Below are positions 16,390-37,077 of a stretch of DNA of 41,599 bases, one piece after another. Made by a program: the position numbers and the translations under genes. The notes beneath the pieces were generated by a model, which searched no databases, had not been told where the DNA came from, and worked only from the letters and a program-made list of their open reading frames with translations. Numbering within the stretch: position 1 is the first letter of the stretch; each line of letters begins with the position of its first letter. The stretch spans positions 1-41,599 of IMG/VR virus record IMGVR_UViG_3300021961_000211; one strand, given 5' to 3'. Origin of the DNA: a virus.

Positions 16390-17652
16390 ATGTCTATCAT
16401 ACAGATTTCAAAAATTCAGCAACGTTCGGGCGATTTAGTCGACCTTCCTCAACTAGATGAAGCAGAACTAGGATTCGCTAGCGATGTAAACAGACTATTC
16501 ATTGGTAAAACCACTGGAAATACAGAAAACATAGAAGTACTCACTGCTTATTCTGACATATCATTTAGTCAATTAGTAGGCGCGGTTGGTAATCTAGATA
16601 TTTCTGCTAGTGTAGCCAACGGCGAAGTTTTAGTTTACGACGGTAATAATTGGGTAAACCGCGGTGGGAACGCAGGTGGATATATCAGTTTAGGCGAAGT
16701 GGGCAACATCTCAATCGAAGGCGGTGCTATAGGATATATTCTCACTACTGATGGTAGCGGCGGACTAAACTGGACACCAAAAGGAATAGTATCACGTAAT
16801 ATACAGGATATCTCAGCCGAATCAACAGCAAGAATGACATTAGCTGAACCTTATCCTTTCGCTGAAGGTTCTGAAATTACAATCAACATGATTGATGGTA
16901 CGTCTTTTGATGTATTGAACGGTAACGTATTTTACTTGAAATCTGTTGCTGGCAATATTCAATTGTATGATTTATTTGAAGATACTGGTTTATTATCTCC
17001 GTTAGACACTACAGGGTTTGGTGCGTATCCTAGCAATACAGGTATAGCAATCTTCAATACTGTCACAGCCAACGGCGGACTAGTAGCTGGTACTACATAT
17101 AGTGTTCAATATAATTCAGGCACAGACTTTGCAGGTGATAGCACATTCACTTATAATTTTACTACCAATACACTAAAAATTCCTAATATAGCAGCAGGTA
17201 CAGATTCAAGTTCTATAGGAACTATCCAAGGTAACTGGACTCTAACAAGCGGTTCAAGATTACAATCAACATATGCTGACCTTGCAGAATATTATTGTGC
17301 AGACCAAGAATATGCACCTGGTACTGTATTAGAATTTGGTGGTAGGCAAGAAGTCACTGTCGCTAAAGAAGAATCAAATAGAATTGCAGGCGTTGTGACT
17401 ACGACTCCTGCTTATGTCATGAACGCTCAACTTCAATGCGAAGAAAATAGTATAGCATTAGCATTGATCGGTCGTGTTCCTGTCAAAGTCAAGGGCGCTG
17501 TCACCAAGGGCGATATGCTTGTAAGCGCAGGACAGGGTTATGCTAAAGCAAGCATAGTCACACCTAAGATCGGCACAGTGATAGGTAAAGCTATCTCCAG
17601 TAAGAATGATGACGGCGAGGGCATCGTCGAAGTGTTGGTTGGCAGACTATAA
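16390..17652 (+). CDS. Tail-fibre-like virion protein, 420 aa
   Basis: A modular fibre or head-appendage protein. The N-terminus (ISKIQQRSGDLVDLP, then EAELGFASDVNRLFIG) is a recurrent anchoring segment of marine T4-like phage fibres. The middle contains short modules such as GEVLVYDGNNWVNRG and YILTTDGSGGLNW, plus a VQYNSGTDFAGDSTFTYNF segment that recurs in the fibre at 37134. The C-terminal domain begins YADLAEYYCADQEYAPG and includes ALIGRVPVKVKGAVTKGDML, a beta-rich domain shared by many phage structural proteins. A role in host recognition or decoration is inferred. It has its own late promoter. Confidence 0.8.
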   Translation: MSIIQISKIQQRSGDLVDLPQLDEAELGFASDVNRLFIGKTTGNTENIEVLTAYSDISFSQLVGAVGNLDISASVANGEVLVYDGNNWVNRGGNAGGYISLGEVGNISIEGGAIGYILTTDGSGGLNWTPKGIVSRNIQDISAESTARMTLAEPYPFAEGSEITINMIDGTSFDVLNGNVFYLKSVAGNIQLYDLFEDTGLLSPLDTTGFGAYPSNTGIAIFNTVTANGGLVAGTTYSVQYNSGTDFAGDSTFTYNFTTNTLKIPNIAAGTDSSSIGTIQGNWTLTSGSRLQSTYADLAEYYCADQEYAPGTVLEFGGRQEVTVAKEESNRIAGVVTTTPAYVMNAQLQCEENSIALALIGRVPVKVKGAVTKGDMLVSAGQGYAKASIVTPKIGTVIGKAISSKNDDGEGIVEVLVGRL

Positions 17653-26749: not shown

Positions 26750-29700
26750 ATGGCATTAACATCACCAGGCGTAGAAGTTACAATCATTGACCAAAGTCAA
26801 TATCTTCCAGCCCCAACAAATTCAGTTCCTTTCATAGTCTTTGCGACTGCTGAAAATAAAGCGAACCCAAACGGTACAGGCATTGCGCAGGGTACAACTC
26901 CTGCTAACGCCGGTAAATTGTTTCAAGTCACTAGTCAACGTGATCTTGTCTCACTTTATGGTACACCGTTCTTTTATAGCACTACTGACGGTACTCCAAT
27001 TCAAGGTTATGAATTGAACGAATACGGTCTACTAGCAGCTTACTCAGCATTGGGTGTAAGCAATCGCGCTTACTGCTTACGTGCAGACATCGACTTAGCA
27101 AGCCTAGTAGGTCAAGCAGGTCGCCCAGTAGGCGAACCAGATGACGGTGCTTGGTGGTTAGACACTACATCAACTCAATGGGGTATTTTTGAGTTTGATG
27201 CAACAACAGGATTGTTCACACAAATTTCTCCATTAGTCATTACTGATGAAGAAAACGTTGTAGCAAGCGCACCAGCTGGATACTTAGGTTCAGTAGGTGA
27301 TTATGCTGTGATCGCTATACCAAGTTATGATGTTCCAACAGCAGCCACAGCAAAACAATTCTTCTATAAGAATGAGAACAATACTTGGGTAGTTTTAGGT
27401 TCACCAGAATGGGAACAAAGCATACCAACATTGGTTGGCACTAACTCAAATCCAACTTTGACTGCTGGTCATGAATTTAGCATCACAATCGGAGGTGCTC
27501 CTGGATTCGGTGGAACTGCTGTAATCGAAGTTCCTGGATTAGGTCAAAATAATGTGACTGGCGTAGCAGCAGCTATCAATGCATTAGGTTGGCAAGAACT
27601 AAGTGCTAGCGTAAGCTCATCAGGCAGATTACAAATATTCAGCAGCCAACAACAATATCAAGCAATCGAAATTGCTGCTGTATCAGGTACGGTATTATCT
27701 GATCTAGGTATCGCAGCCGGAACTTATCTAGAACCAACTTTGTTCTATGGTACTTCAGCACAACAGCCACTATGGCAAGTAGGTCAGGTCGGTCCGCGCC
27801 CAACTGGTTCAGTTTGGATCAAAGTAGGAAGCGCAGGTTCAGGCTTGAACCCAGTAGTCAAACAATATGACGGTGTTGCAGATGCTTGGATCACAAAAAA
27901 TGTCACATTGGCAATCAATGACGAATCAGCTATCGCTGCTCTTGATTCAACAGGTGGACAAGCAATTCCAGCTGGTACAGTCTATGGACAGTACAATTAT
28001 AATGGACAATATAATCAAGGTCCAGTATATCTATGGGAAAGAATAGCAGAAGGTCCTACAGTAGTAACAGGTACAAACACTGAACCAAGCTTTGATGCTG
28101 GCCCATATACTTTGAGAGTGTACATATCAACACCTAATAGCACTGCGGTCACTGGACCCTACACAGTAACTTTAGCAGATAATACATTTGCTGAAGAGTT
28201 TGTTGAAGCATGGCAATTAGCAAACATTCCATATACTACAGCAACTATCGCAACAGATGGTGCTATCGTATTGACACATACTCTAGGCGGTTGTATCGAA
28301 ATCAGCGATATCGACTCAACAACTGGAATATCAAACGGATTGTTAGCAGAAGCAGGTTTCGTAGCTGGCGTGACAGAAGGCGTCAAGATTGGACGTTTCT
28401 ATTCAACATCATTTACTGTTCTTCAATCTTCAACATCAGGTGGCGGTTCTAACGCACAGTTTGAGATCAGCAAGGACGGCATGGGTTATGTAGTAGGAGA
28501 CATCTTAGCTGCAGGTTCAGGCTATGCAGTCGATGACACAATCACTTTTGCAGGCACAAACTTAGGCGGCGCAAGTCCAGAAAACGATTTGGTATTGAAA
28601 GTATCAGACGTTGATGGATCAGGCGGTGTAGTGTCAGTAGTGATTGATGAAAACTCAGGCACATCAGTATCTACATATGGTATCGACATCTCAAATTGGG
28701 TAGAGTTCGATTATACCGCAAACGAAGGTGCACCAACTGCATTGCCAGCTAACAACACTAACTGGTTCTACAGCGTAACAGATGAAGCTGATATCATGAT
28801 AAGAACCACAGCAGGTTGGAAGGGTTATCGTAATGTAAACTTTGATGCTAATGGTTTCCCACTACCAACTGGTACTAATACAACTGATCCAAACGGACCA
28901 ATCGTAAGCGCAAGCATGCCAACTGCTCAATCAGATGGTACAGCACTAGCTTATGGTGATTTATGGATCGACACTAGTGATCTAGAAAACTATCCAATCA
29001 TCTCACGTTGGCAGATGGTGGATGGTGAAGATCAATGGGTATTGATCGATAACAGTGATCAGACATCAAGTTCAGGTGTTTTATTTGCTGACGCTCGTTG
29101 GTCAAGTAATCAAAATACTATCAACCCAGCAAACGATCCTATCCCAACAATCAAATCATTGTTATTGAGTAATAATCTTGATCTTGATGCACCAAGTGCT
29201 GTATTATACCCAGTAGGTATGTTGTTGTTCAACACACGCCGTTCAGGTTATAACGTCAAGCAGTGGAGAAATAACTACTTCAACTCATTGAGTTTCCCTG
29301 ATGAGACTATCCCAACTATCCGTAGTACATGGGTAAGTGTAAGTGGCTTACAGTCAAATGGTAGTCCTTACATGGGTCGCAAGGCTCAAAGAGCGATGGT
29401 CGTTGAAGCAATGCGTTCAGTGGTAGATACAAACACAGCAATACGTGATGAAGATAACTTCTTCAACTTGATGGCTGCTCCAAACTACCCAGAACTACAG
29501 CCTAACATGGTTGTATTGAATAGTGATCGTGGTGAGACAGCTTACATCTTAGGTGATACTCCAATGGGATTACCAGAAGATGCAACAGCAATTCAAGCAT
29601 GGGCAACTAACGCTGCTGGTGCAACAAGCACAGGTGAAGCAGGTTGCGTAACACGTAACACTTATCTTGGATTGTTCTACCCAAGCGGTATCGCACTAGA

Positions 29701-30316
29701 CTTGAGTGGTAATGAAGTCGCTGTTCCAGCATCACACATGATGCTACGCACATTCTTGCGCAATGACCAAGTTGCTTATCCTTGGTTAGCGGCTGCAGGT
29801 ACTCGTCGTGGTATCATCGACAATGCATTGAACATCGGTTACCTAGATCGTGAGACAGGTGAGTTCATCACAACTAAGACACGTATCGGTATCCGCGATG
29901 TTCTATACATCAACTTCATCAACCCACTAGTGTTCTTCACTGGTAACGGCTTGTTGAACTATGGTAACAAGACATCATTCAATAGTCAGAGCGCATTGGA
30001 TCGTACAAACGTAGCAAGACTAGTTGCGTACATCCGTCGTCAATTGACTATCGCAGGTCGTCCATTCGTATTCGAACCAAACGATGCGTTGACTCGTCAA
30101 CAGATCGCTGGTGTGATCGAATCATTGATGGTTGATCTTGTAGCAAAACGAGGACTCTATGACTACTTGGTAGTCTGTGACGAATCAAACAACACTCCTG
30201 CTAGAATAGATCGCAATGAATTGTGGGTCGATGTCGCAGTTGAGCCTGTCAAGGCTGCTGAATTCATCTACATCCCAGTTCGTATCTTGAACACAGGTGA
30301 GTTGTCAGGAGCGTAA
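26750..30316 (+). CDS. gp18: Tail sheath protein, gp18-like, with large insertion
   Basis: The contractile sheath subunit. The N-terminus ALTSPGVEVTIIDQSQYLP is the canonical sheath start, and the C-terminal region (PIVFF-like NPLVFFTGNGLLNYGNK, then NVARLVAYIRRQLTIAGRPF and LYDYLVVCDESNN) is the conserved sheath core. At 1,188 aa it is far longer than T4 gp18 (659 aa). The extra sequence lies in the middle, roughly residues 120-800, and is beta-rich with repeated motifs (GRLQIFSSQQQYQAIEIAAV and GAIVLTHTLGGCIEISDIDS look alike). Such insertions would sit on the outer tail surface. The start follows AGGAAAAACG and a late promoter. Confidence 0.95.
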   Translation: MALTSPGVEVTIIDQSQYLPAPTNSVPFIVFATAENKANPNGTGIAQGTTPANAGKLFQVTSQRDLVSLYGTPFFYSTTDGTPIQGYELNEYGLLAAYSALGVSNRAYCLRADIDLASLVGQAGRPVGEPDDGAWWLDTTSTQWGIFEFDATTGLFTQISPLVITDEENVVASAPAGYLGSVGDYAVIAIPSYDVPTAATAKQFFYKNENNTWVVLGSPEWEQSIPTLVGTNSNPTLTAGHEFSITIGGAPGFGGTAVIEVPGLGQNNVTGVAAAINALGWQELSASVSSSGRLQIFSSQQQYQAIEIAAVSGTVLSDLGIAAGTYLEPTLFYGTSAQQPLWQVGQVGPRPTGSVWIKVGSAGSGLNPVVKQYDGVADAWITKNVTLAINDESAIAALDSTGGQAIPAGTVYGQYNYNGQYNQGPVYLWERIAEGPTVVTGTNTEPSFDAGPYTLRVYISTPNSTAVTGPYTVTLADNTFAEEFVEAWQLANIPYTTATIATDGAIVLTHTLGGCIEISDIDSTTGISNGLLAEAGFVAGVTEGVKIGRFYSTSFTVLQSSTSGGGSNAQFEISKDGMGYVVGDILAAGSGYAVDDTITFAGTNLGGASPENDLVLKVSDVDGSGGVVSVVIDENSGTSVSTYGIDISNWVEFDYTANEGAPTALPANNTNWFYSVTDEADIMIRTTAGWKGYRNVNFDANGFPLPTGTNTTDPNGPIVSASMPTAQSDGTALAYGDLWIDTSDLENYPIISRWQMVDGEDQWVLIDNSDQTSSSGVLFADARWSSNQNTINPANDPIPTIKSLLLSNNLDLDAPSAVLYPVGMLLFNTRRSGYNVKQWRNNYFNSLSFPDETIPTIRSTWVSVSGLQSNGSPYMGRKAQRAMVVEAMRSVVDTNTAIRDEDNFFNLMAAPNYPELQPNMVVLNSDRGETAYILGDTPMGLPEDATAIQAWATNAAGATSTGEAGCVTRNTYLGLFYPSGIALDLSGNEVAVPASHMMLRTFLRNDQVAYPWLAAAGTRRGIIDNALNIGYLDRETGEFITTKTRIGIRDVLYINFINPLVFFTGNGLLNYGNKTSFNSQSALDRTNVARLVAYIRRQLTIAGRPFVFEPNDALTRQQIAGVIESLMVDLVAKRGLYDYLVVCDESNNTPARIDRNELWVDVAVEPVKAAEFIYIPVRILNTGELSGA

Positions 30317-33573: not shown

Positions 33574-34185
33574 ATGAAAAGCCTAAAACAATACATTGCA
33601 GAAAGCATACATCTATTTGATGTAACGATCAAGATTGCAGGAGAAGTCGATAAAAACTTTTTAGATTTGTTTATATTCAATCTAAAGAAGTTCGAACCAG
33701 CTGGTCCGATCACACCTAAAAGACTTCCTATAGCAAAAGATGTATATGGTTTTCCTGGCGTACATAACGAGCCAGTCACTATTCTAAAGTGTAAGTTCCG
33801 TTATCCATGCACAGAACCAATGGTACAGCAATTAGCACAATTGTTAGGTTATAACTTAAACTATGTGCGTCTTGTCAACACTGCTTATGATGATAGCATC
33901 AACCGTGAGCAGGACGAGTATGCTAACCAGATGGAACCTAACATGAAGGATTTCGATAAGATTAGCGGTGCAGAAGAAGCAAGCAAAGCATATGGTAATT
34001 CATATCTAGATAGCATCAAAGAGCAGACTAAAGAATCAGAAATCATGATTCCTTATGCCGCTAAACCAACTCCAGACAGTTTTGATCCATTCAAACCATA
34101 CTTAGATGATCAAAAGATGGGTGATAAAAGTCCTATGACAAATATCAAACGCCCAGCAAAACCTAAAACAGGCGCGATGGCGTAA
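33574..34185 (+). CDS. Putative internal head protein with capsid-targeting N-terminus, 203 aa
   Basis: The start at 33574 gives MKSLKQYIAES, very like the capsid-targeting sequence of T4 internal proteins (MKTYQEFIAEA), in which gp21 cleaves after the Glu of IAE. The next 90 residues look like a folded alpha/beta domain (FDVTIKIAGEVDKNFLDLF, VTILKCKFRYPCTEP). The C-terminal part is disordered and Pro/Lys/Asp-rich. Internal proteins enter the prohead and are injected with DNA, often against host defences. That role is inferred from the N-terminal motif and late promoter. A frame extension to an ATG at 33544 lies upstream of the promoter. Confidence 0.72.
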   Translation: MKSLKQYIAESIHLFDVTIKIAGEVDKNFLDLFIFNLKKFEPAGPITPKRLPIAKDVYGFPGVHNEPVTILKCKFRYPCTEPMVQQLAQLLGYNLNYVRLVNTAYDDSINREQDEYANQMEPNMKDFDKISGAEEASKAYGNSYLDSIKEQTKESEIMIPYAAKPTPDSFDPFKPYLDDQKMGDKSPMTNIKRPAKPKTGAMA

Positions 34186-34196
34186 GAGGAAGTATC

Positions 34197-37025
34197 ATGG
34201 AATTCAAAGATTTTTTACAGTTTATAAACGAAGCAGAATCAACTGCTGAGAAAGATGACAAAGCCGAAAAGGCAGGCAAGAAAGTTGCCAAGGACATCGA
34301 ATACGATGAAGGTCATAAGGGCAAGGATGACGAGAAGGCAGAAAAGGCCGGAGAGAAGGTCAAGAAAGATATCGAATACGATGACAAGAAAGATAAGAAA
34401 TCTTTGAAAGACTGGTTTGAACTATTAGACAAGAAAGTTATCAACGAAGCAGATCAACTAAGATTAGAGCCTGCAAAACAATCAACACAAGTTTTGAAGA
34501 AAGGCGACGAAGTTATTGGTACTGTAACTAATCCTGCATTAGCAGCAACTATCAAATCAGCTATCGGTAAAGGCGAGATGTCATTAGCCGGAAAAGAAAT
34601 GAAAGAAGCAGAGCTTGATGAAAAATGGGCAGGCGATGCTAAAGTAAAACACACTGGCCAATACAGTGATAAAACAAAAGAAGAATTGAAATCAATGTTG
34701 GCTAAGTTACACAAAAGCGGCCCGCATGATAAAGACAGTCCTGCTGCTAAAAAGATGCGTCAAATCAATTTCGCATTACGTGCCAAAGGCGGTTGGAAGA
34801 GTGGCGAAGGCGCTGCTATGAAAGAAGAACAGTTGGATGAACTATCACCAGCAACTTATACAAGTGCTGCTCAAAAGGCAAGAGGACAAGGACAAGCATA
34901 CGCAGCTAAAGCAACAACACAAGCAGGAGCAGCGATGTATGGTTCTCAACAAGGCAAGCATGAGCCTAACTCACCTGCAGCAAAAATGGACAATTTTGCG
35001 CAACAAAGATTTGCTTTAGCAAACAAAGCAGAAAAGAAAGCAGGACTAAAACCTGGTGAAGCCGGAGTTCATTCATATGATCCAACTCCCGGCGACAAAG
35101 GATATTCAAAAAGCGGCCCAAAATCATTAGATGAAAAAGCAAAGAACCCATATGCTATTGGTATGTCACAAGCAATGAAGTCAACTGGTGATAAACCACC
35201 TTTGAAGAAATCAACAATTACTAAAGCACATGATATTGCTAAGTCAATCAAAAAGAAAACTGACGAAGCAGAAATTCCAAAGTCAGGCCCAGATTACGGT
35301 GCAGGTTTAGGGGCAGGACGCAAAGATGTATTAGAAACTACACAGGTAAACGAAGCTATGAACACATTAGAAGCAGCCTATCATGAAGGCAAATCACATG
35401 GATTGAGCAAGCACGGTTATGCTTGCCGTTATAACGAAGGTAGCGAAGAACACAAGCGTTATCATGACGGCTTCAAAGAAGGTCTTGATGAGTGCTATGG
35501 CTTGATGCCAAATCGTGGTCTTGTAGTAAGCGAGATCGAATCAGGAGCAGATGTTGTTGATGACATGGCTTCATACGGTGCAGAAGAAGGCGAATTAGCC
35601 GAAATGGATAAGACAGAATATATGCGACATAAAGCAAAAACATCTCCTGGCGACACATTCAAGGCTTTTGGTCAAACATTCAAAGATAAAGACGTATTAG
35701 AAACAGATGCTTTTGCTGATGCCGAAGTTGATGAAGATTTCGCTAGCGGTGCCAAGAAATTCATGAAAGGAATGGGTACTGTAGGTAGAGGTGTAGGCAC
35801 AGTATTAGGTAAAACAGCACGTGCCGCAGTTACAGTTCCGGCAGCAATTGCAGGCGGTGTTGCTGGATTAGCTCAAGCAGCTAAAGATGGATATCAAGCC
35901 GGTAAAACAGCAACGGGAACAGCAAATGAAGCACTTGACGAATATGCATTTGAATCATTAGACAAGAAATTGAATGATCTATTGAATGAAGGCTTGAGTG
36001 TCAATATGTCACAAGGTCTAGGTGGTCCAGGTGCAGAAGATACAGTCAGTGTCACGGCACAAGGCGACGACGCAGGCAAACTATTACAATTCATCAAGCA
36101 AGTTGGTCTAGGTGGATTAGGTGCTCCTGAACAAGTTGATGGTCCATCAGAGCCGGCAGTAGCAGTAAGTGATTACGGCGCACCTAAGTTCGGTGGCTAT
36201 GATAGTGAAAAAGGTGACATGATGGGGTTATTGAAAGTCATGTCAGGTGGTGAAGATTATAAAGATGAAGAAGGTCATGATCACGGCGATATGCCAAAAG
36301 CAAAGATGTGCGGTACACATGGCGTAGATGAAGCCAAGTGTGGTTGCGGCGAAGGTAAAGAGATGGTTGATGAAGTTGAATCAGAAGACCAGATGGAATA
36401 TCAAGTTGCTGAAGATGACGGCGAAGGTAATATCGAAGCAGATGAACAGGGCGCACAGATTGATGCAGCTTTAGCAGTAGGTTCAGAGAATGAAAAAGAA
36501 GTTACTGAAGGCGGTGACGGTGGCGAAAGTAGTCCAGAAGCAGCCGGTGCAATTGCAGCAGCAGACTCAGATGAAGAGCAAGAAGAAGCAATGAGCGAAT
36601 CAAGTTTCTTGAGTCTATACAAGAAGATCGCATTGATCGCAGAAGAGTCAACTGCTGAGAAAGATGATAAGGCTGAAAAAGCAGCTAAGAAAGTCGCTAA
36701 AGATATCGAGTATGATGAAGGTCATAAAGGTAAAGATGACGAGAAGGCAGAAAAAGCCGGAGAAAAAGTCAAGAAAGATATCGAATATGATGACAAGAAA
36801 GACAAGAAAGAAAAAGTCGATGAGTGGGCAAACGATGCCGGTAAAGATGGTACACAGCAGACATTTGAGCGTGACATCGAATTCATGACTAAGGTCATCT
36901 CAGGCGGATTGAATAAGCCTAAGTCAACTGGCCAGCAGACTATCCCTGTACTTGCAGGTGATAAAGAGCGTACTGGCGATGAAGACATGGCTGAGTACAA
37001 GAAACTAGCAGGTCTAGGACAATAA
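34197..37025 (+). CDS. Large putative internal head protein, 942 aa, with duplicated charged repeat
   Basis: The N-terminus MEFKDFLQFINEA resembles a capsid-targeting sequence with an INE-A prohead-protease site. Further possible gp21 sites ((I/L)xE) occur near residues 82 (VINEA), 597 (LLNEG) and 814 (LIAEE). A 55-aa Lys/Asp/Glu repeat occurs at about 14-68 and again at 817-871, differing in one residue. Other parts are a KKFMKGMGTVGRGVGTVLGK segment followed by a hydrophobic Ala/Gly-rich helix (about 525-570), a SVNMSQGLGGPGAEDTVSVT domain near 600, and a small Cys cluster (CGTHGVDEAKCGC, about 704-716). The protein is largely disordered and charged. A role as a processed head-interior protein is inferred. 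GAGGAAG precedes the start. Confidence 0.75.
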   Translation: MEFKDFLQFINEAESTAEKDDKAEKAGKKVAKDIEYDEGHKGKDDEKAEKAGEKVKKDIEYDDKKDKKSLKDWFELLDKKVINEADQLRLEPAKQSTQVLKKGDEVIGTVTNPALAATIKSAIGKGEMSLAGKEMKEAELDEKWAGDAKVKHTGQYSDKTKEELKSMLAKLHKSGPHDKDSPAAKKMRQINFALRAKGGWKSGEGAAMKEEQLDELSPATYTSAAQKARGQGQAYAAKATTQAGAAMYGSQQGKHEPNSPAAKMDNFAQQRFALANKAEKKAGLKPGEAGVHSYDPTPGDKGYSKSGPKSLDEKAKNPYAIGMSQAMKSTGDKPPLKKSTITKAHDIAKSIKKKTDEAEIPKSGPDYGAGLGAGRKDVLETTQVNEAMNTLEAAYHEGKSHGLSKHGYACRYNEGSEEHKRYHDGFKEGLDECYGLMPNRGLVVSEIESGADVVDDMASYGAEEGELAEMDKTEYMRHKAKTSPGDTFKAFGQTFKDKDVLETDAFADAEVDEDFASGAKKFMKGMGTVGRGVGTVLGKTARAAVTVPAAIAGGVAGLAQAAKDGYQAGKTATGTANEALDEYAFESLDKKLNDLLNEGLSVNMSQGLGGPGAEDTVSVTAQGDDAGKLLQFIKQVGLGGLGAPEQVDGPSEPAVAVSDYGAPKFGGYDSEKGDMMGLLKVMSGGEDYKDEEGHDHGDMPKAKMCGTHGVDEAKCGCGEGKEMVDEVESEDQMEYQVAEDDGEGNIEADEQGAQIDAALAVGSENEKEVTEGGDGGESSPEAAGAIAAADSDEEQEEAMSESSFLSLYKKIALIAEESTAEKDDKAEKAAKKVAKDIEYDEGHKGKDDEKAEKAGEKVKKDIEYDDKKDKKEKVDEWANDAGKDGTQQTFERDIEFMTKVISGGLNKPKSTGQQTIPVLAGDKERTGDEDMAEYKKLAGLGQ
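34236..34400 (+). repeat. 55-aa coding repeat, copy 1
   Basis: Begins ESTAEKDDKAEKAG and ends IEYDDKKDKK. It nearly matches copy 2 at 36645-36809. The unit is itself a loose inner duplication of an EKAEKAG-KKDIEYD block. Confidence 0.92.
36645..36809 (+). repeat. 55-aa coding repeat, copy 2
   Basis: Same 55 residues as copy 1 except one Gly-to-Ala change. The DNA differs at several third codon positions, so the protein sequence appears to be held by selection. Confidence 0.92.
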
Positions 37026-37050
37026 GAAGGTATATAAAACCTTAGCTAAA

Positions 37051-37077
37051 ATGCCCGGCAATGCTGGGCATTTTTTT
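37051..37077 (+). terminator. Rho-independent terminator
   Basis: A 9-bp stem with one G-T pair (ATGCCCGGC 37051-37059 with GCTGGGCAT 37063-37071) around AAT, followed by seven T residues. Confidence 0.88.

Follow-up and report, generated by a model that had tools for sequence, protein, structure and literature searches.

The question raised by this locus is what a T4-like phage would gain from a 942-aa protein, encoded by the last gene of its late block, in which the same charged block of 55 aa occurs twice. The window, that is, the whole stretch of DNA that was analysed, is a 41.6-kb fragment held as an IMG/VR record, and it carries T4-type replication genes together with a late block. The order in the latter is an Ad2-like neck protein, the tail sheath, two tail-tube-like proteins, head closure, two small proteins and the 942-aa ORF, which exists on the plus strand as an earlier note on this DNA had described it. 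A strong terminator and then a collagen-containing tail-fibre-like gene come after it. We favour, with somewhat more confidence than an even chance would warrant, the explanation that the 942-aa protein belongs to the prohead core and is a polyprotein from which gp21 cuts cargo peptides. The elements at this end of the late block are the following (here and below, an arrow marks a possible cut).

33574..34185, plus strand: upstream ORF with a CTS-like start (likely start MKSLKQYIAE↓SI; homologue in the 174-kb relative G002, MKSLKHYIVE↓SV)
34197..37025, plus strand: 942-aa modular protein, last gene of the late block, with positional homologues in 79 IMG/VR loci
37048..37074, plus strand: intrinsic terminator directly 3′ of the 942-aa gene (12-bp stem, T tract)

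The start of the upstream ORF is very like the CTS of T4, which in IPIII reads MKTYQEFIAE, and its product may be a second protein of the head interior. The 41.6-kb fragment lacks the head genes gp20-gp23, which is why the phage's own gp21 is not seen, a weak point of the polyprotein reading. The gp23 of a relative is ~65% identical to those of Pseudomonas PA5oct/Paride-type and Vibrio 2.275 jumbo phages, so that a host other than a cyanobacterium is possible. When the window was scanned for the T4-type late promoter TATAAATA, the count was not above chance. Elsewhere in the window, the tail sheath (26750-30316) is, at 1188 aa, longer than usual; its best PHROG tail-sheath stretch (phrog_10581) spans residues 632-1183, with a large extra part N-terminal to it. 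A 420-aa protein encoded at 16390-17652 weakly matches Peptidase_G2 (IMC autoproteolytic domain) and tail-fibre/minor head families.

The complete homologues in the 79 loci are mostly 616-1115 aa long. Conservation was counted over 34 aligned representatives, which are built as mosaics in which small modules have been inserted and lost. No family in Pfam or PHROGs covers the 942-aa protein as a whole, and neither collection gave a match that would link it to the T4 IPs or Alt. Among isolated phages no full homologue was found, and one shared module of 50 aa is the most that was seen: gp114 of the marine Synechococcus phage S-RIM8 contains a module that corresponds to residues 311-360 and is 58-66% identical, but it is otherwise an unrelated mosaic that has no cassette, no CTS-like start and no RMF-like module. 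The gene adjoining the gp114-like mosaic protein in two marine Synechococcus phages encodes a protein of 108 aa, which starts MKSYNEFISE↓SV in S-RIM8 (L081, 9011-9337) and MKSYKQFLSE↓SV in QB2 (L082, 2548-2874). Profile searches of PA5oct, Paride, Vibrio 2.275, Phosso and Atu_ph07, which have a related gp22 and/or gp23, revealed no homologue of the 942-aa protein, and a BFVD fold search with the full-length model, mostly of low confidence, gave no significant match. In the literature consulted, mostly freely available papers, neither such a protein nor a virion RMF-like domain is described, a weak sign of novelty.

The repeated block was the starting point of the earlier note, which had reported two near-identical Lys/Asp/Glu blocks that differ at silent positions, each of them a loose doubling. 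All of this was borne out. A mechanical repeat search found a direct repeat of 172 nt (34229-34400 and 36638-36809, 2409 apart) that is 87% identical, within which two cassettes lie in frame; the halves of the block agree at 15 of 19 residues.

34236..34400, plus strand: cassette, N-terminal copy (residues 14-68), a position occupied in 6/34 representatives
36645..36809, plus strand: cassette, C-terminal copy (residues 817-871), present in 31/34 representatives

The two copies, of 55 aa each, differ by one amino acid. By contrast, they differ at 20 of the 55 codons, with 19 synonymous changes, and the differences by codon position are 0/1/20. The resulting dN is 0.007 and the dS about 2.1, near saturation (NG86), which indicates that the cassette peptide is under strong purifying selection. 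Because silent sites are near saturation while the peptide is unchanged in both places, the pair, judged from its codons, is the product of neither recent duplication nor recent gene conversion. The pattern is explained if both copies are under strong purifying selection; selection for silent divergence, blocking recombination between the copies, may be an extra factor. It could be argued that the cassette is a disordered protective filler, a hydrophilin-like or DNA-interacting spacer whose repetition is incidental. Its composition (17 Lys and 19 Asp/Glu in 55 aa), the disorder predicted for both copies in the full-length AF2 model and the varying number and position of copies among homologues would agree with this idea. 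Spacers tolerate substitution, yet the two copies agree at 54 of 55 residues with dS about 2, and of the segments compared none is as conserved as the C-terminal cassette (mean column identity 0.82, against 0.46 for the whole protein); we therefore hold the filler explanation to be highly improbable.

Judged from the alignment, the family has a mobile cassette. The 34 representatives contain 42 cassettes: 31 are C-terminal, 6 N-terminal (this window, L007, L010, L027, L063 and L070), 3 central (L032, L041 and L042) and 2 located directly before the fourth helix described below (L011 and L033), and a wider search identified tandem copies in L093 and L125. A hydrophobic-x-Glu site precedes nearly every N- or C-terminal copy. 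The suggestion of the earlier note that the two repeats give equivalent products would thus apply to this phage and a few close relatives; most homologues have the C-terminal cassette only, and some the N-terminal one only. No cellular source of the cassette was found in a collection of bacterial and archaeal genomes, searched with a peptide pattern and by tblastn. A second family of proteins (L107, L110, L113, L119, L141 and others) bears the cassette in a central position. It has neither the LAGL tag nor the RMF-like module, which counts against the polyprotein reading. Its members are mosaic proteins that mostly start M[TS]FFYDLNK, are encoded on contigs of up to 344 kb, and show E-ended module borders and a GGLNxPKxTGQTT-like motif.

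If the protein is a precursor, the borders between its modules should be informative. The endoprotease gp21 of T4 cleaves after L/I-X-E, and a 10-residue CTS targets proteins to the head (PMC9026906). Along the 942-aa chain, the candidate sites and the elements associated with them are as follows.

34197..34232, plus strand: N-terminal helix MEFKDFLQFINE, CTS-like, possible cut after E12 (residues 1-12; AF2 helix 3-15)
34401..34448, plus strand: second helix SLKDWFELLDKKVINE, possible cut after E84 (residues 69-84; AF2 helix 70-85)
35346..35354, plus strand: VNE motif directly before the RMF-like module (residues 384-386)
35526..35534, plus strand: VSE motif after the RMF-like module (residues 444-446; E446 in 29/34, P3 L/I/V/M in 28/29)
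35943..35990, plus strand: third helix YAFESLDKKLNDLLNE, possible cut E598↓G599 (residues 583-598; AF2 helix 579-596)
35991..36116, plus strand: GLSVxMS..DSVSVxA..LLxFIKQxGLG domain, two strands and a helix in AF2 (residues 599-640; conservation 0.71)
36600..36644, plus strand: fourth helix SSFLSLYKKIALIAE, possible cut after E816 (residues 802-816; AF2 helix 805-815)
36816..36824, plus strand: VDE motif after the C-terminal cassette (residues 874-876; E876 in 34/34, P3 L/I/V/M in 34/34)

The full-length AF2 model was used for local features only, because its mean pLDDT is 52; its four helices stop no more than about three residues from the proposed cuts. The first, MEFKDFLQFINE, has the form of an N-terminal helix of ~10 residues that ends in L/I-x-E, and its targeting role is putative; 26/34 homologues have [LIVM]xE[AGSE] with P1 at 9-16. 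The second helix and its site are found in 21/34 homologues by a strict pattern. In L022, where the first helix and the cassette are missing, the second helix takes the N-terminal position (MKSLKEYFVEVEKNILAE↓AE), as though one helix could stand in for the other. The cut sites of the earlier note are present, but its numbering deviates by one or two residues: P1 falls exactly on E12 (FINE↓AE), E84 (VINE↓AD), E598 (LLNE↓GL) and E816 (LIAE↓ES), and the new N-termini would therefore be 13, 85, 599 and 817 rather than 14, 83, 598 and 815.

The earlier note had named a lack of conservation of the sites in homologues as grounds for dropping its idea, and the idea withstood this check: E598 and G599 are invariant (34/34, with L/I/V/M at P3 in all) and E816, E817 and S818 are at least 90% conserved (E816 in 31/34, with L/I at P3 in 28). 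The border Glu is fully conserved at E386, E598, E726 and E876 and nearly so at E739, E801 and E816. In every Glu-bearing sequence, P3 is L/I/V/M at E386 (always hydrophobic, V in this protein), E598, E726, E739 and E876, against an all-Glu background of 27%; P1′ is A/G/S at E386 in 31/34, at E598 in 34/34 and at E801 in 31/32, against a background of 34%. The motif [LI]xE[AGS] occurs 131 times in the 34 representatives and 65 times (sd 7) in shuffles, counts that come from related sequences and so are not independent. The [LI]xD[AGS] and reversed-motif controls were depleted and the xK control was mildly enriched too; E-rich linkers could also yield site-like motifs for other reasons, a point against the polyprotein. 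A further point against it is that V at P3 of E386, E446, E726 and E739 lies outside the published L/I rule of T4 and is a real deviation from it; in addition, E816 has E at P1′.

The motif is not confined to this protein. In relatives, gp22 begins LLE↓SG..LNE↓AW..LNE↓AR and KKQLLAE↓S lies close to the N-terminus of gp23, so that the counterparts of two gp21 substrates of T4 carry a motif like that of the 942-aa protein, and a gp21-type Peptidase_S77 gene is present in the contigs of five relatives. In G002, two adjacent genes for small proteins (98760-99155 and 99152-99526, within L179) have the CTS-like starts MRAKEFINE↓GRT and MRAYEFLTE↓GEG, and [LI]xE[AGS] lies near the N-terminus in 13/163 ORFs, with about 4 expected from shuffles. 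An alternative is that the protein stays uncut, as an internal or tail-associated protein in which the helices are docking elements and the hydrophobic-x-Glu linkers flexible joints. This would suit a gene located among those for tail sheath, tail tube, neck and tail fibre, a location that also tells against the polyprotein, and site motifs that often depart from a strict L/I-x-E↓A/G/S. The (near) invariance of the border Glu over very divergent homologues runs contrary to it, and both the CTS-like N-terminal helix and the gp22-like tail point to the head, which makes an uncut protein improbable in our judgement.

Between two of these borders lies a module that the earlier note had missed, as it had the gp22-like C-terminal tag.

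35355..35504, plus strand: RMF-like two-helix module (residues 387-436; AF2 of the module alone, pLDDT 90.9)

A Foldseek search of 350,542 PDB chains with this module returned three matches in all, 2jrm, 9iot_y and 6h4n_v, and all three are RMF (TM 0.72-0.78, prob 0.97-0.98); with E-values about 0.5, the fold match alone is not significant. The full-length AF2 model gave the same top match. For the comparison of profiles, 60 RMF and divergent RMF-like sequences were collected, and hhalign aligned the module with the resulting profile over 41 gapless columns (prob 86.2, score 27.4). The maximum in 300 column shuffles was prob 10.6 and score 16.2, and the reversed profile gave 0.2; an earlier comparison with five RMF sequences only had given prob 33. 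Single sequences did not reach the curated cut-offs of Pfam RMF (best member E 0.058) or NCBIfam PRK14563 (best member E 0.0056), RMF being among the sub-threshold matches in both collections. A PDB sequence search with the module profile found nothing up to E = 10, and a tblastn search of phage records with E. coli RMF gave no match.

Likeness to RMF (PF04957) and to divergent RMF-like proteins extends beyond the two-helix fold and the gapless profile match to the glycines and aromatic positions, which are kept, and the CxY..GS.EH..Y..G of the module resembles the NPY..GS.EH..W..G of divergent members. On the other hand, the module differs from classical RMF in that it lacks the basic N-terminus KRQKRDR, is acidic and is embedded in a virion-type polyprotein. 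Its net charge is -4 to 0, whereas that of classical RMF is mostly +4 to +7 and that of divergent RMF-like proteins mostly -7 to 0. The basic rRNA-binding surface of RMF is not found in it, and this acidity is another argument against the polyprotein with its RMF-like cargo. Residues 387-436 are thus predicted to have an RMF-like fold, and homology to RMF is probable.

A further segment of the chain had attracted attention as a hydrophobic Ala/Gly helix that could interact with membranes.

35721..35942, plus strand: Ala/Gly-rich insert (residues 509-582, 74 aa), bracketed by VDE and LDE

The stretch exists, but it is weakly hydrophobic (the Kyte-Doolittle mean over 19 residues peaks at 1.49, at residue 544). 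A membrane-active helix was rejected as a feature of the family, because no significant counterpart of the insert was found in other members and it is unique to this copy.

At its C-terminus, the protein shares a tag with the scaffold protein of related phages.

36987..37022, plus strand: C-terminal tag MAEYKKLAGLGQ (residues 931-942), which matches the gp22 scaffold tag of relatives

In relatives, gp22 ends ..NVID[LI]KRLAGL, and in PA5oct, Atu_ph07 and Phosso it ends ..L[RK]RLAGI with one or two further residues behind the motif. Among the homologues of the 942-aa protein, most finish in ..[WYF][KR][KR]LAG[LI] plus zero to two residues. The motif K[KR]LAG[LIM] is found in 2 of the 163 ORFs of G002, which are gp22 and the homologue of the 942-aa protein, and in PA5oct gp22 is the sole ORF that ends in a LAG tag. 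We take the tag to be a putative docking peptide for shell or core, common to gp22 and the 942-aa family. The 942-aa protein was also considered as a gp22 homologue and rejected: relatives have a separate gp22 between gp21 and gp23, and the C-terminal tag is all that the two proteins have in common.

The tag also speaks for the main rival explanation, an accessory scaffold that would be a core component like gp22/gp67, cut so that all its pieces leave the head, with no effector delivered. Like core proteins, the 942-aa protein is long and mostly disordered, with acidic residues 599-801 (net -39), and most core fragments of T4 exit the head (PMC9026906). A scaffold would not be expected to vary so highly in module content between relatives. 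Moreover, the cassette has remained nearly unchanged as protein while its silent sites approached saturation, and the RMF-like module has retained its fold and invariant residues, two features that point to peptides with their own function. We consider the accessory scaffold possible, if rather unlikely.

According to the polyprotein reading, the CTS-like N-terminal helix and the gp22-like C-terminus would bring the protein into the scaffold core, where a gp21-type protease would cut it after the hydrophobic-x-Glu motifs between modules. The released peptides would include the charged cassette of 55-60 aa (twice here), the RMF-like domain of roughly 60 aa, which the VxE motifs at 386 and 446 would free as a 60-aa peptide, and others. 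Some of them would remain in the head with the DNA and then enter the host, and the protein may therefore be a package of peptides delivered to the host. The modular architecture, the selection on the cassette, the site motifs at module borders, the gp22 tag, the gp21-type proteases of relatives and the RMF-like fold of the model form the observed ground of this proposal. Cutting, injection and any action on ribosomes are inferred from there, and so is packaging in the head, for which the CTS-like start, the site motifs and the gp22-like end speak. The full version, in which freshwater T4-like phages use a head polyprotein to deliver peptides that include an RMF-like ribosome-acting factor and a charged peptide in variable copy number, we regard as doubtful and, on balance, unlikely. 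If it is true, the RMF-like factor would act on the ribosomes of the host as soon as infection begins, ahead of phage gene expression, and the domain raises the testable question of whether some phages bring a ribosome-hibernation-like factor along. The hydrophobic-x-Glu borders predict exact neo-N-termini, and the modules swapped among relatives would make a convenient list of phage peptides that may be injected.

The closest known systems include the internal head proteins of T4. IPI, IPII, IPIII and Alt resemble the 942-aa protein in having a short N-terminal amphipathic helix with a hydrophobic-x-Glu end, followed by a charged body; here, too, the setting is a T4-like phage, with a gp21-type protease encoded by its relatives. 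They differ in that each has a single CTS and yields a single mature product (in Alt there is a C-terminal cut as well), whereas the 942-aa chain contains several CTS-like helix and site units with a different cargo after each. T4 delivers few internal proteins, with one targeting sequence each, and the loading of many different peptides would be more economical with a modular polyprotein in which several helices are targeting-like. The T4-type core proteins gp22/gp67 share with the 942-aa protein the presence of several internal gp21-type sites; unlike them, the latter has variable modules, the cassette and an RMF-like fold, and the same genomes encode gp22 as a separate protein. In phiKZ-like giant phages such as SPN3US, head-internal proteins are cut after x-x-E by the prohead protease and have extra propeptide sites (PMC5694885). 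The processing proposed here would be similar, although the SPN3US-type protease motif is A/S-x-E, the propeptides are long and a modular cassette architecture is not reported there (PMC5694885).
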